64,000 nucleotides of DNA from Stenotrophomonas sp. ESTM1D_MKCIP4_1. GTDB taxonomy: Bacteria > Pseudomonadota > Gammaproteobacteria > Xanthomonadales > Xanthomonadaceae. The translations under genes and the position numbers were made by a program. Each line of letters opens with the position of its first letter. Positions within the stretch are counted from its first letter, which is position 1. A model generated the notes under the pieces. It searched no databases, was not told where the DNA came from, and saw only the letters and a program-made list of their open reading frames with translations. The stretch spans positions 3,864,684-3,928,683 of the forward strand of contig NZ_CP026004.1 in assembly GCF_003086895.1 (NCBI RefSeq). Direction: 5' to 3'. This document shows, piece after piece, positions 42,042 through 56,465 of this stretch.

Positions 42042-42049
42042 GGCGGCCG

Positions 42050-42246
42050 AATGCAGGAGAGAGGCGCCACGCTGGCGCCCGCCGAAGGCGCAGGCTCCCA
42101 TGATCGCTCAGGCCGGTGGGCTGGAATCCCACCAACCATGCATTCGACTCGCCGAGCTGGAGAGAGGTCACCGGGCACGCCCGGCACGATCCGCCGAAGG
42201 GGCACGCGGTTCATCCCGCTGAACTCTCAGGCAAAAGGACAGCGGG
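42050..42246 (+). ncRNA. Tandem glycine riboswitch
   Basis: Two glycine aptamers are seen in sequence. The first runs from about 42052 with GCAGGAGAGAGGCG ... CGCCGAAGGCGCAGGC ... TCGCTCAGGC. The second runs from about 42156 with CTGGAGAGAGG ... CCGCCGAAGGGGCACGC ... ACTCTCAGGCAAAAGGACAG, the classic 3' signature. The linker between them is short (about 25-30 nt), as in co-operative tandem riboswitches. It stands immediately upstream of the TRIC/UPF0126 gene with no clear terminator, so an ON switch acting at translation or an unseen terminator is possible. Confidence 0.92.
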
Positions 42247-42334
42247 AGCGGCACCGGTCATCGTCATCCCGTCATTGCGCAGGCAGTGGCGGTATACGCG
42301 CATGGCCGGCCCCACCGCGCCCGGAGCCTTTCCC

Positions 42335-50611: not shown

Positions 50612-50618
50612 ATGCGGG

Positions 50619-50742: not shown

Positions 50743-51279
50743 TCAGCGCGCGGAGCGGATTGCATTACCTGACGTGCCGGGCATGGCACGACGGCTTCGT
50801 GCCACACGCCGAGCAGGCGTGGTTGCAGATTCCCGCGGCGGGTCCAGCAGCGGCACCGTCGTGCCAGTACGTTCGGCCAGCCAGCGCACCACATCCGGCT
50901 TTTCCATCGCCAACGCCAGCAGCATCGTCGTAGCATCGTCGGGATAGGTCGTCTCGTTCTCGTAGCGGGAGAACGCAATGGCACCTTTTCCGAAGAGCGT
51001 TGCCGCTGCACGCTGGGTCAGGCCATAGCGACGCCGAAATGCGAGCACGTCCTCACCCAGCAAGAGGCCGCCGTAATGTTCGCGCCGGGCCGCCAGACGC
51101 CTGAGGTTCTCGATCTGCTGTGCTTCGCTGGTTGCCGTAGCGCCACATGCAGGGCACTCCATCACCAACAGGTCGACAACAACTTCATTGCCACGCGGGC
51201 TGAAGTGTCGTTCGCGTGTGGATGCCAGCAACCGTGCGTTCTGGCAGGCCGGACACATCCGGGGCTTGGCGTTGTTCAT
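50743..51279 (-). CDS. MqsA-like antitoxin with zinc finger and HTH
   Basis: 178-aa protein. The N-terminus carries two CxxC pairs (Cys9/Cys12 and Cys42/Cys45; MCPACQNARLLAS and MECPACGATATSE), the YgiT/MqsA zinc ribbon. The middle (about 75-130) is an HTH-XRE domain of MqsA type (FRRRYGLTQRAAATLFGKGAIAFSRYENETTYPD). It ends with a basic tail (ARRVARSRRAMPG). It lies 28 bp downstream of the toxin-like gene, in the toxin-first order of mqsRA. It probably binds and neutralises the toxin and represses the operon. Confidence 0.82.
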   Translation of the reverse strand: MNNAKPRMCPACQNARLLASTRERHFSPRGNEVVVDLLVMECPACGATATSEAQQIENLRRLAARREHYGGLLLGEDVLAFRRRYGLTQRAAATLFGKGAIAFSRYENETTYPDDATTMLLALAMEKPDVVRWLAERTGTTVPLLDPPRESATTPARRVARSRRAMPGTSGNAIRSAR

Positions 51280-51886: not shown

Positions 51887-52220
51887 ACACAGGGCCCTTC
51901 TGCTGCCCGCAGATTCCTCAGTGGAATCAGTGAAATGCGGCCCCCATGAAGGCCTGCCAGACGCAGGATCATCGTGAGCCGGGGGCGCGCTGTCGGCGCT
52001 GATGTGGCCGCCGACGGGTCGTAGCCGTCATTGGCGGGCAATCATCCACGCATGGCGTGGATCTACAGTTCACTCCACCCCGGCGATGTACCTGGCGCTG
52101 TCGCACTTACGTAGCGCCAGGCGCATCGCCGGTGCGGACGGGTCGGTCTCCAACTCCGACCGACCCTGATCGCGGCCGCACCCCCGCAGGCGCTGGCCGC
52201 CATCCACACACGTACCGCAA
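51887..52220. other. Gene-poor gap with a repeat and a detached RND-gene 3' fragment
   Basis: A GTAG-type repeat (CATCCACGCATGGCGTGGATCTAC) lies at 52043-52066. Directly after it, 52070-52168 can be read as [17 protein letters not shown] ... and a TGA stop, matching the end of RND permeases. The 21 bases at 52080-52100 match mdtC 50567-50587 at 20 positions. No start codon or rest of the gene is present. The remaining ~150 bp shows no feature. Confidence 0.65.
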
Positions 52221-53294
52221 TCAAGCGGCTTCAGACACCTTTACTTCACGACGGGCGCGCACGGCAGCGGCCAAGCGCTCCAGCACCTGCACGGTGGTGT
52301 CCCAATCAATGCAGCCATCGGTGATGCTCTGGCCGTAGACCAGCGGCTGGCCTTCCACCAGTTCCTGGCGGCCGCCGACCAGATGGCTTTCCACCATCAC
52401 GCCGACGATGCGCTGTTCGCCGTCTTCCAGCTGGGTGGCGATGTCCTCGATCACCTTCGGCTGGTTTTCGGGGTTCTTCAGGCTGTTGGCGTGGCTGGCA
52501 TCAATCATCAGGCGCGTCGGCAGCTTGGCCTTGGCCAGCGCCTGGCAGGCCTCGCCCACGCTGGCCGCGTCGTAGTTCGGCTGCTTGCCGCCACGCAGGA
52601 TCACGTGGCAATCCGGGTTGCCGGTGGTGGACACGATGGCCGTGCCGCCCTGCTTGGTGACCGACAGGAAGTGGTGCGGGTTGGACGCGGCACCCACCGC
52701 ATCGGCGGCAATCTTCACGTTGCCATCGGTGCCGTTCTTGAAGCCCACCGGGCACGACAGGCCCGATGCCAGCTCGCGGTGCACCTGGCTTTCGGTGGTG
52801 CGCGCGCCGATGGCGCCCCAGGCCACCAGATCGGCGATGTACTGCGGCGAGATCACATCGAGGAACTCGACGCCGGCCGGCAGGCCCAGCTTGTTGATAT
52901 CGCGCAGCAGGCCGCGGGCAATGCGGAGGCCCTTGTCGATCTTGAAGCTGCCATCCAGGTCCGGATCGTTGATCAGGCCCTTCCAGCCCACCGTGGTGCG
53001 CGGCTTCTCGAAGTACACGCGCATGACGATTTCCAGTTCGCCGGCCAGCGCATCGCGCAGGGGCTTCAGGCGCTGGGCGTACTCGATGGCCGCGTGCGGA
53101 TCGTGGATCGAACACGGGCCCACCACTACGGCCAAGCGGTCGTCACGGCCGTGCAGGATCTCGTGCAGGGCCGCGCGCGAGGCGCTGACCGTGTCGGAGG
53201 CTTCATCGTCACACGGCAGCATCGCCAGCAGCTGGGCGGGCGGTGTCAGCGGTTCGATGGTACGGATACGAAGGTCGTCGGTGTGCGGGGGCAT
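52221..53294 (-). CDS. aroG: 3-deoxy-7-phosphoheptulonate (DAHP) synthase, class I
   Basis: 357-aa type I-alpha DAHP synthase, the first enzyme of aromatic amino acid synthesis (PEP plus erythrose-4-phosphate). Active-site motifs: RLAVVVGPCSIHDPHAAIEYA, YFEKPRTTVGWKGLINDPDLDGS, GARTTESQVHREL, VGFKNGTDGNVKIA and IDASHANSLKN. The start MPPHTDDLRIRTIEP at 53294 matches the family N-terminus. The gene is preceded by a terminator hairpin (53341-53370) and an aromatic-rich leader peptide, so attenuation is the likely control. Confidence 0.97.
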   Translation of the reverse strand: MPPHTDDLRIRTIEPLTPPAQLLAMLPCDDEASDTVSASRAALHEILHGRDDRLAVVVGPCSIHDPHAAIEYAQRLKPLRDALAGELEIVMRVYFEKPRTTVGWKGLINDPDLDGSFKIDKGLRIARGLLRDINKLGLPAGVEFLDVISPQYIADLVAWGAIGARTTESQVHRELASGLSCPVGFKNGTDGNVKIAADAVGAASNPHHFLSVTKQGGTAIVSTTGNPDCHVILRGGKQPNYDAASVGEACQALAKAKLPTRLMIDASHANSLKNPENQPKVIEDIATQLEDGEQRIVGVMVESHLVGGRQELVEGQPLVYGQSITDGCIDWDTTVQVLERLAAAVRARREVKVSEAA

Positions 53295-53340
53295 GGGGGG
53301 GGTCTCTACGGAATGTGGGGGTCCGCAGCGTGGCGACATG

Positions 53341-53370
53341 AAAAAAGCCGCCAGGTTCGCTGGCGGCTTT
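53341..53370 (-). terminator. Attenuator-type terminator in the aroG leader
   Basis: On the minus strand AAAGCCGCCAG-CGAAC-CTGGCGGCTTT is followed by TTT: an 11-bp stem, 5-nt loop and a T run, ending 47 bp before the aroG start. It lies between the leader peptide stop and aroG and no gene ends here, so it is an attenuator and not a gene-end terminator. Confidence 0.88.
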
Positions 53371-53393
53371 CGGGAATGCGTCTGAAGGTTTCT

Positions 53394-53471
53394 TCAGGGT
53401 GAGCGCAGTCCTTCCTCCGCCGGGGGCTTCGGAAAGTAATACCAATAAAAGTTGGCGTGGGCTGCGTTCAT
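53394..53471 (-). CDS. aroG leader peptide with Phe-Tyr-Trp-Tyr-Tyr-Phe run
   Basis: A 25-codon open frame on the minus strand starts ATGAACGCAGCC and reads MNAAHANFYWYYFPKPP, then AEEGLRSP and TGA. Six adjoining codons (TTT TAT TGG TAT TAC TTT) specify all three aromatic amino acids. It ends 24 bp before the terminator hairpin. A small hairpin CTGAAG-AAAC-CTTCAG begins at its stop codon, and GGCGG in codons 17-19 could pair with CCGCC of the terminator's first arm as a weak antiterminator. It is the arrangement of pheA/trp-type leader peptides. Confidence 0.88.
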   Translation of the reverse strand: MNAAHANFYWYYFPKPPAEEGLRSP

Positions 53472-53479
53472 GGGATGTA

Positions 53480-53509
53480 TTGATAGCACAGCTTCTGCGC
53501 TGTGCAAAA
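53480..53509 (-). promoter_or_regulatory. aroG leader promoter with an inverted repeat in its spacer
   Basis: The minus strand has TTGCAC as a -35 and TATCAA as a -10, 16 bp apart. The spacer contains GCACAG-N8-CTGTGC, an inverted repeat at 53486-53505 that overlaps the -35. The -10 lies only 8 bp before the leader ATG, so the leader peptide may be translated from a nearly leaderless transcript. Confidence 0.6.
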
Positions 53510-53552
53510 TGTTTCATTGGCAACTGCGGGCGCGGTTCAGGCAGGGCGCGCC

Positions 53553-53813
53553 TCAGCGCTTGCCGTGCACTTCCACATCCAGCAGCAGGCCTTCATGGAT
53601 GTCCACCCAGCGCTCCACCACGCGGTCCAGTTCCTTGCGGGCATCGTCCAGCTGCTCGGGGTTGAGCAGGGAGCGGGCGGTGTAGAGATCGGAGACGAGC
53701 TGCCGCAGGGTCGATTCCAGGATGGCGACCGACGGCCCCTCCAGCCCCGGCACCTGCAGCGCCGGGCTGTCGCCAAGGGTTCCGTACAGCGTGACCTGGA
53801 GCTTGCTCTGCAT
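53553..53813 (-). CDS. Small unknown protein, 86 aa
   Basis: The protein starts MQSKLQVTLYGTLGDSPALQ behind AGGGAAG and continues with a strongly helical acidic part (ESTLRQLVSDLYTARSLL, ELDRVVERWVDIHEGLLLDV). It is cytoplasmic by appearance. No family recognised. It is upstream of aroG on the same strand but is separated from it by the aroG leader and promoter. Confidence 0.6.
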   Translation of the reverse strand: MQSKLQVTLYGTLGDSPALQVPGLEGPSVAILESTLRQLVSDLYTARSLLNPEQLDDARKELDRVVERWVDIHEGLLLDVEVHGKR

Positions 53814-54454: not shown

Positions 54455-54652
54455 GCCACCGAAAACGGGTGGCCGGGTCTGGAAGCCCGTGCAACAGAAG
54501 AAACGTTTGTCAGCCGGCGCCGCGTGGTGCGGCGCCGGCTGGCAAATCGTCCGCGTTCCATGGCGGGCGGTACGTGGGGACCTGAGGGTCCACCGGTTTA
54601 CTTCTGTTTCCCGGCTTCCAGCCACGTACCGTCCGCCACCTCTTCCGGTGGC
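54455..54652 (+). ncRNA. Candidate structured RNA with interleaved long stems, upstream of a 118-aa gene
   Basis: In order: hairpin GCCACC/GGTGGC (54455-54473); segment A (CTGGAAGCC 54479-54487 and AACAGAAG 54493-54500); a perfect 13-bp hairpin CAGCCGGCGCCGC/GCGGCGCCGGCTG (54511-54541); segment B GGCGGGCGGTACGTGG (54562-54577); hairpin GGACC-TGAG-GGTCC (54578-54591); segment A' (CTTCTGTT 54601-54608 and GGCTTCCAG 54613-54621); segment B' CCACGTACCGTCCGCC (54622-54637); hairpin GCCACC/GGTGGC (54635-54652). A pairs with A' and B with B' (one G-U), giving an A-B-A'-B' order, i.e. a pseudoknot or two exclusive folds. Function unknown; it could also act as DNA. Confidence 0.6.
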
Positions 54653-56428: not shown

Positions 56429-56465
56429 TTCAGGCGTGGGTGGGTGTTGCAAGTGGATCGGAAGG

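Follow-up and report, generated by a model that had tools for sequence, protein, structure and literature searches.

A probable ribosome-mediated attenuator with codons for phenylalanine, tyrosine and tryptophan upstream of aroG in Stenotrophomonas and related proteobacteria

The aroG gene of Stenotrophomonas sp. ESTM1D_MKCIP4_1 is preceded by a short open reading frame with six adjacent aromatic codons, a terminator hairpin and an arm that can compete with it. Judged from the sequence and its comparison with relatives, this leader is very probably a ribosome-mediated transcription attenuator. Whether each of the three aromatic amino acids would by itself be sensed is a more delicate matter, and the balance tips only slightly in favour. 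The leader lies in a 64,000-nucleotide stretch of contig NZ_CP026004.1, referred to as the window, from whose first letter all positions are counted.

Results

Elements of the aroG leader

The following elements, all on the minus strand, are considered below.

53502 to 53507, minus strand: predicted -35, TTGCAC; majority letters near here are TTGCA-like in 90 unique Xanthomonadales-type upstream sequences; a generic scan was silent
53480 to 53488, minus strand: predicted extended -10, TGC-TATCAA, 8 nt before the leader ATG and 16 nt after the -35
53394 to 53471, minus strand: leader open reading frame MNAAHANFYWYYFPKPPAEEGLRSP, 25 codons and TGA; a leader of the same plan stands at 90 of 90 loci of the genus
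53433 to 53450, minus strand: control codons Phe-Tyr-Trp-Tyr-Tyr-Phe; wobble bases vary at several positions, the residues remaining aromatic
53417 to 53421, minus strand: putative antiterminator arm GGCGG within the reading frame (codons CCG GCG GAG), in the same phase in 103 of 103 Xanthomonadales-type leaders
53360 to 53371, minus strand: terminator 5' arm GAAAGCCGCCAG, which includes CCGCC (53366-53362), common to terminator and antiterminator
53341 to 53354, minus strand: terminator 3' arm CTGGCGGC with T run, from sequence and fold
52221 to 53294, minus strand: aroG, class I (AroFGH type) DAHP synthase of 357 amino acids (PF00793, E 3.2e-94; TIGR00034; structure matches)

The leader frame reads MNAAHANFYWYYFPKPPAEEGLRSP from the ATG at 53471 to the TGA at 53394, and its six adjacent aromatic codons are TTT TAT TGG TAT TAC TTT (53450-53433); a first-pass annotation of this DNA had placed both frame and run correctly to the base. 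The frame carries a run of codons for end products of the pathway, as do the leaders of amino-acid attenuators. The FYWYYF codon pattern occurs only once in the whole 4.48 Mb genome. When 299 genomes of the order were searched for it, 17 matched and 13 of the places were found to precede aroG; the other four (L005-L008) are AT-rich and look like chance matches. The reversed control pattern was matched in 3 genomes.

Between the leader and the structural gene lies an intrinsic terminator that consists of the stem GAAAGCCGCCAG (53371-53360), the loop CGAAC, CTGGCGGCTTTT (53354-53343) and a T run at 53346-53341. The hairpin, which had been noted earlier together with its T run, has a folding energy of -19.8 kcal/mol (z -5.0), with none of 200 shuffles as good, and its stem begins 22-26 nt after the leader stop codon, according to where the A/T base of the stem is cut. 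The gene was said to follow just after the terminator, and its start was found at 53294, 46 nt beyond the T run. A species-wide terminator preference as the source of the conserved core was unsupported: the genome has CCGCCAG-N3-8-CTGGCGG with Ts at a single place, where, being a palindrome, it is seen on both strands. A generic promoter and terminator scan of 53200-53700 reported neither element, which we ascribe to its rule demanding a final T in the -10 and to its extending the stem into the T run.

The position of the -10 predicts a transcription start that coincides with the leader ATG or is no more than about 3 nt away. For 88 of 90 unique Xanthomonadales-type upstream sequences, a search restricted to about 25 nt before the leader ATG placed the end of the best -10 at 7-9 nt upstream of that ATG. 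A 4-nt match to a Shine-Dalgarno sequence was present before the leader in 0 of these 90 and before aroG in 73. The leader mRNA of this aroG is therefore likely, at good though not high confidence, to be leaderless. By eye, leaders of the Bradyrhizobium, Mesorhizobium and Comamonadaceae types have a similar -10 that is 6-8 nt from the ATG in most, and Burkholderia and Massilia are without a close -10 and have a TATAA- or TATAG-like box some 30-45 nt upstream. A leaderless leader mRNA is thus probable in several lineages. The trpL mRNA of Sinorhizobium meliloti is described as shown to be leaderless, starting at the ATG (PMC7298713, PMC10117765).

The enzyme encoded downstream

The aroG product matches the class I DAHP synthase (AroFGH) profile TIGR00034 with 536 bits (cut-off 173). 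It scored 560.5 bits with the narrower NCBIfam AroG model, under the cut-off of 568, and 511 bits with the AroH subfamily, above the cut-off of 463. As the AroG model is narrowly missed and the AroH cut-off is passed, the letter G is a convenience. The best matches among solved structures are DAHP synthases, some of them named Phe-regulated. The first-pass annotation had assumed a DAHP synthase without isoenzyme; a second enzyme, of class II, is however encoded in the genome. A second PF00793 match was rejected as a further DAHP synthase and is a KDO-8-P synthase. No convincing aromatic leader (a short reading frame with 3 aromatic residues in 5) was found at the two PF04715 genes, the PF00800 gene (pheA) or the class II DAHP synthase locus; the two PF04715 genes are trpE and a second one, which is probably pabB. 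One short match of this search in L304 and three in L238 were judged by eye to be due to chance. Among the sampled genomes of the family, 97 of 129 were without a match to this AroFGH-type enzyme, and 13 of 54 genera have one.

Several other features were seen in the window. The 86-codon reading frame directly upstream of the leader (53553-53813, minus strand) was without a match in Pfam or NCBIfam at E 0.001. A phage-type regulatory RNA pair is found roughly 1 kb away from the leader and on the other strand: a C4 antisense RNA (54556-54643, plus strand; Rfam RF01695, 67.5 bits, gathering score 45) beside a sub-threshold match to isrK at 54455-54510 (26.9 bits, gathering score 50). Two glycine riboswitch aptamers in tandem (41.9 and 50.2 bits) are situated at 42044-42252 (plus strand), and downstream of aroG a MqsA-type antitoxin is encoded (50743-51279, minus strand; PF15731, 69 bits). 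Short palindromic stretches at 52071-52141 (directly 3' of aroG), near 50612, at 54510-54561 and at 56436, whose frames recur by eye as WIYC/STHGVDLL-like pieces, are perhaps dispersed REP-like repeats.

Conservation of the leader upstream of aroG

Leaders were detected as reading frames of 12-45 codons in which a stretch of six residues includes at least 4 aromatic ones and which a terminator follows closely. Applied to the DNA upstream of aroG at 293 loci (275 unique; L055 and L078, with too little upstream DNA, were omitted), the detector fired on 218 of the 275 unique sequences, giving 180 unique leaders, on 0 of 825 dinucleotide shuffles and on 1 of 275 reverse complements. Over 848 tiles of the window only 3 fired, all of them covering the leader. 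A chance reading frame is ruled out by the shuffles and the tiles. An ordinary terminator of the upstream gene combined with such a frame has a negligible probability and may be regarded as already refuted: the hairpin could indeed end upstream transcription too, but the shuffles never gave the arrangement and run, phase and spacing are conserved over families and classes.

The leader was detected at 90 of 90 loci of the genus, 28 of 28 of other genera of the family, 19 of 20 of a second family and 2 of 2 of a third; the latter (L003, L004) were first found by the FYWYYF pattern, and no other sampled genome of that family bears aroG. The one miss in the second family (L226) has the reading frame and was matched by the covariance model described below, so that every examined Xanthomonadales aroG locus has a leader (139 of 140 by the detector, the last by the model). 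Among named GTDB loci, the best 80 of 589 relatives, 47 of the 78 usable ones had a detected leader and 31 had none. A protein search of the phylum gave a match in 220 of 397 genomes, and upstream DNA was taken from 62 of these outside the order, hand-chosen and mostly the best scoring; here a leader was detected at 37 and not at 25. The misses among the named loci include enteric, Vibrio, Methylotenera, Thauera/Azoarcus and Polynucleobacter rows. At L035, L062, L084 and L086 the leader is evident and the aromatic run present, the terminator being below threshold. Many rows are close relatives and the counts are not independent.

A covariance model, R1, was derived from 21 diverse leaders and run on 220 genomes of the order, with 13 candidates scored per genome. 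Among the matches listed, which were ordered by E-value, 51 are strong (at least 62 bits) and full-length. The genomes concerned are precisely the 51 in which aroG was matched over its full length, two very weak protein matches being set aside, and each leader match is on the strand of the aroG match and 38-141 nt upstream of it. Among the matches listed for the order no strong leader match was seen without an AroFGH-type enzyme, and with reserve the element is private to aroG within the order among these matches. This bears on the view that a small protein made from the reading frame, or the terminated RNA acting as an sRNA, works elsewhere and that attenuation is secondary. Such a role has a precedent in peTrpL and rnTrpL of Sinorhizobium, which are described as products of a leaderless trp attenuator (PMC7298713, PMC10117765). 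Here it is improbable, because the strong full-length matches of the order, among those listed, stand only before aroG, and because the N-terminal residues vary, the conserved parts being the aromatic content and the RNA arm.

In the phylum R1 was applied to 398 genomes with stricter filters and 7 candidates scored per genome. Of the matches listed with less than about 30 bits, most extend over no more than the 3' half or the terminator. Seven matches were inspected, of which three precede aroFGH-type genes (L361, L365, L366) and four precede pheA, pheS, leuA and, with 25 bits in the genome under study, ilvC; in other genomes the pheA leader (40.4 bits) and the pheS leader (35.6 bits) are weak matches.

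Relatives of the leader were found in Burkholderiales and Rhizobiales. Mapped on a tree of 79 aroG proteins, the presence of a leader requires 10 changes (24.6 with shuffled labels). A single supported group of 53 rows, which comprises Xanthomonadales, Rhizobiales, Burkholderiaceae and Oxalobacteraceae, takes in 45 of the 48 rows with a leader. Outside this group are two leader rows of the Comamonadaceae type and an unplaced Burkholderiales row (L085). Lack of conservation in close relatives had been fixed beforehand as the outcome that would refute an attenuator; the comparison was carried out, and the run, the hairpin and the competing arm are conserved before aroG at the loci examined in the order and, in part, outside it.

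The composition of the aromatic run is maintained without its order. In Xanthomonadales the runs FYWYYF, FYFWYYF, FYFWYYGF, YFWYYF and YYFWFYGY were found; elsewhere FYFYFFW occurs in Burkholderia, YFWYFSY or FYWYFSY in Bradyrhizobium and SFWYFSY in Mesorhizobium. Arrest peptides usually hold a fixed sequence. It is thus very unlikely that the nascent peptide itself causes the stall through binding of a free aromatic metabolite within the ribosome, in the manner of TnaC, which is described to sense free Trp: the run varies (FYWYYF, FYFWYYGF, YFWYYF, YYFWFYGY, FYFYFFW, FYWYFSY), and the conserved tail is accounted for at the RNA level, as set out in the next section.

The competing arm is conserved as RNA

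When the folded RNA omits the terminator 3' arm, GGCGG (53417-53421) is predicted to pair with 53366-53362. In this species the fold is mildly better than chance only (z -2.1; 9 of 200 shuffles at least as good) and the core helix is just 5 bp, because the Pro codon CCG stands where CTG was; among 180 leaders the arm is 7 bp in 106 and 5 bp in 46. A competing antiterminator that a stalled ribosome would free is indicated by prediction and conservation, with an arm that in this species is weak at 5 bp.

The conservation concerns both phase and spacing. GGCGG is read as NNG GCG GNN in all 103 Xanthomonadales-type leaders, in which NNG encodes nine amino acids; for comparison, GCG makes up 37% of the Ala codons in 135 aroG genes. 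The other 77 leaders share this phase in 57 cases, have another phase in 8 and are without GGCGG in 12. The types of leader were set by peptide regular expressions and not by taxonomy. From the last aromatic codon to the NNG codon there are exactly three codons in 96 of the 103 Xanthomonadales-type leaders and in 34 of the 57 others of the same phase, and of 168 GGCGG-bearing leaders 130 have a distance of 14 nt between the opening base of the last aromatic codon and the G with which GGCGG begins. A bacterial ribosome covers about 12 nt counted from the first base of the A-site codon. With a spacing of 14 nt, a stall on the last or an earlier aromatic codon should leave the arm just free.

The base adjoining the GGCGG/CCGCC core pairs in 109 of 164 leaders and is unpaired in 55, this species included; in some lineages both partners have changed (T-A, C-G, A-T). 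Leaders pair better with their own arms than with exchanged ones (18.9 vs 17.9; 0 of 2000 permutations, 81 unique combinations). At six flanking positions pairs are little above independence (at most 37 vs 31 and 49 vs 43 of 66), so that the covariation is modest. Arm strength exceeded that of synonymous recodings at p<0.05 in just 13 of 180 single loci. Taken over loci, randomly recoded tails had at least 5 pairs in 1024 of 1320 cases vs 129 of 132 for the real ones, with a mean of -20.2 vs -26.0 kcal/mol. That the aromatic content is kept without its order and the tail is kept as RNA suggests attenuation rather than a functional peptide.

Folding was also predicted with a ribosome in place. 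With the RNA made up to the terminator loop and the ribosome on the last aromatic codon, the antiterminator was predicted in 177 of 180 leaders. The terminator was predicted in 180 of 180 when the ribosome stood at the stop codon, and in 178 of 180 with no ribosome. For full-length RNA with a stalled ribosome the terminator was still the minimum-energy fold in 165 of 180. As the terminator is the better full-length fold despite the stall, antitermination must be kinetic, by the order of synthesis.

A model for attenuation of aroG

Attenuation by ribosome stalling, as proposed in the first-pass annotation, is strongly supported by the comparison, in which run, terminator and competing arm are conserved. 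Transcription would begin at or beside the leader ATG, and a ribosome would translate the leader close behind the polymerase. A shortage of charged Phe-, Tyr- or Trp-tRNA would stop the ribosome on one of codons 8-13 and leave GGCGG just outside it. GGCGG could then pair with the emerging CCGCC, together with an inner GGA/TGCG helix, and this pairing would block the terminator and so allow transcription of aroG. With an ample supply of all three, the ribosome would pass codons 14-25, open the GGCGG arm and come to rest at the stop codon, where it covers the inner helix, upon which the GCCGCCAG/CTGGCGGC hairpin would form and transcription would end. At the stop codon the ribosome would leave GGCGG itself, which starts 25 nt upstream of the stop, uncovered and would cover the inner helix. 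Both the stalling and the efficiency of termination we infer from this arrangement of the elements.

Of 136 distinct leader peptides, 118 have Phe, Tyr and Trp all within the aromatic cluster: 67 of 68 of the Xanthomonadales type, 23 of 23 of the alpha type, 9 of 13 of the Burkholderiaceae type and 19 of 32 others. A response to each of the three would, on our estimate, be slightly favoured. The attenuator may instead respond in practice to a single amino acid, of which Phe or Tyr would be the probable one, with the Trp codon and the mixture merely tolerated; we consider this possible, at roughly one chance in three. In its favour, 18 of the 136 distinct leaders are without Trp in the cluster and 109 of the 136 peptides have just one Trp. 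The AroR leader of Corynebacterium glutamicum, moreover, has Phe-Tyr-Phe, yet Tyr availability is described as being without effect (PMC11802643). Against it, all three residues are kept in the cluster of most peptides while the order and number of codons vary.

Discussion

DAHP-synthase attenuators and mixed-codon leaders are known already. The first-pass annotation knew of no well-studied leader with such a mixed run, but AroR, the leader of the DAHP synthase gene aroF in C. glutamicum, is one: its Phe-Tyr-Phe codons are described to attenuate the gene, Phe limitation being effective and Tyr limitation not (PMC11802643). Compared by description, AroR and the aroG leader share mixed aromatic codons and ribosome-mediated attenuation of a DAHP synthase gene; AroR differs in being actinobacterial, and the text of the review mentions no Trp codon for it. 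The predicted uORFC-13-1, known from 24 sequences of Acholeplasma and environmental origin (PMC8632094), likewise combines a uORF and a terminator ahead of a DAHP synthase gene, aroF, but is described with Phe codon(s) only and with an RBS. The trpL/rnTrpL leader of S. meliloti has an mRNA that starts at the ATG, as is predicted for the aroG leader, but is described with Trp codons only and the gene trpE(G).

The trp leader of Escherichia coli has control codons, competing hairpins and a T run. The aroG leader is built like this leader and those of pheA and pheST of E. coli, which differ in having a single control amino acid and other genes. Leaders with mixed Ile, Leu and Val codons are known for ilv genes (E. 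coli ilvGMEDA); as in the aroG leader, one leader holds codons for several end products of one pathway, here the branched-chain one. In the genome under study ilvC (NCBIfam; L367, C1:3580700-3582400) is itself preceded by a leader frame ...RSILVLVLITQPTGAGRASV and then a GC-rich hairpin and T run, a mixed Ile/Leu/Val attenuator of the same plan.

A gathering-level Rfam scan of the whole window gave nothing at the leader locus, where Phe_leader (RF01859) scored 22.4 bits against a gathering score of 55. In the available text of PMC1262725 no conserved RNA structures are described before phenylalanine or tyrosine operons in Actinobacteria, and aroG is unmentioned in that of PMC2965389, PMC4842269, PMC4603805, PMC10117765 and PMC10219788. 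No report of the aroG leader in Xanthomonadales, Burkholderiales or Rhizobiales was recognised in the open-access literature searched, by which its absence from print is not established. New are all three aromatic residues in a proteobacterial aroG leader, its breadth, the spacing and the probable leaderless start.

A wider proposal, which we hold tentatively and at somewhat less than even odds, is that the leader is an OR gate that reads three tRNA charges for entry into the shikimate pathway. The leaderless mRNA and the 14-nt spacing would make every aromatic codon an effective stall site, and the device would be old in one large proteobacterial aroG branch, where it would replace the TyrR-type repressors of enteric bacteria. 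The leader gives a direct answer to how bacteria might set the flux of the aromatic pathway by all three end products together with one RNA switch. It would also add an attenuator family, uncalled here by the searched copy of Rfam, in plant-associated, symbiotic and environmental genera, and would offer a clean model for the coupling of leaderless translation to attenuation. Finally, the leader is an example of a coding sequence under dual load, in which NNG GCG GNN is fixed for RNA pairing and the first amino acid varies.
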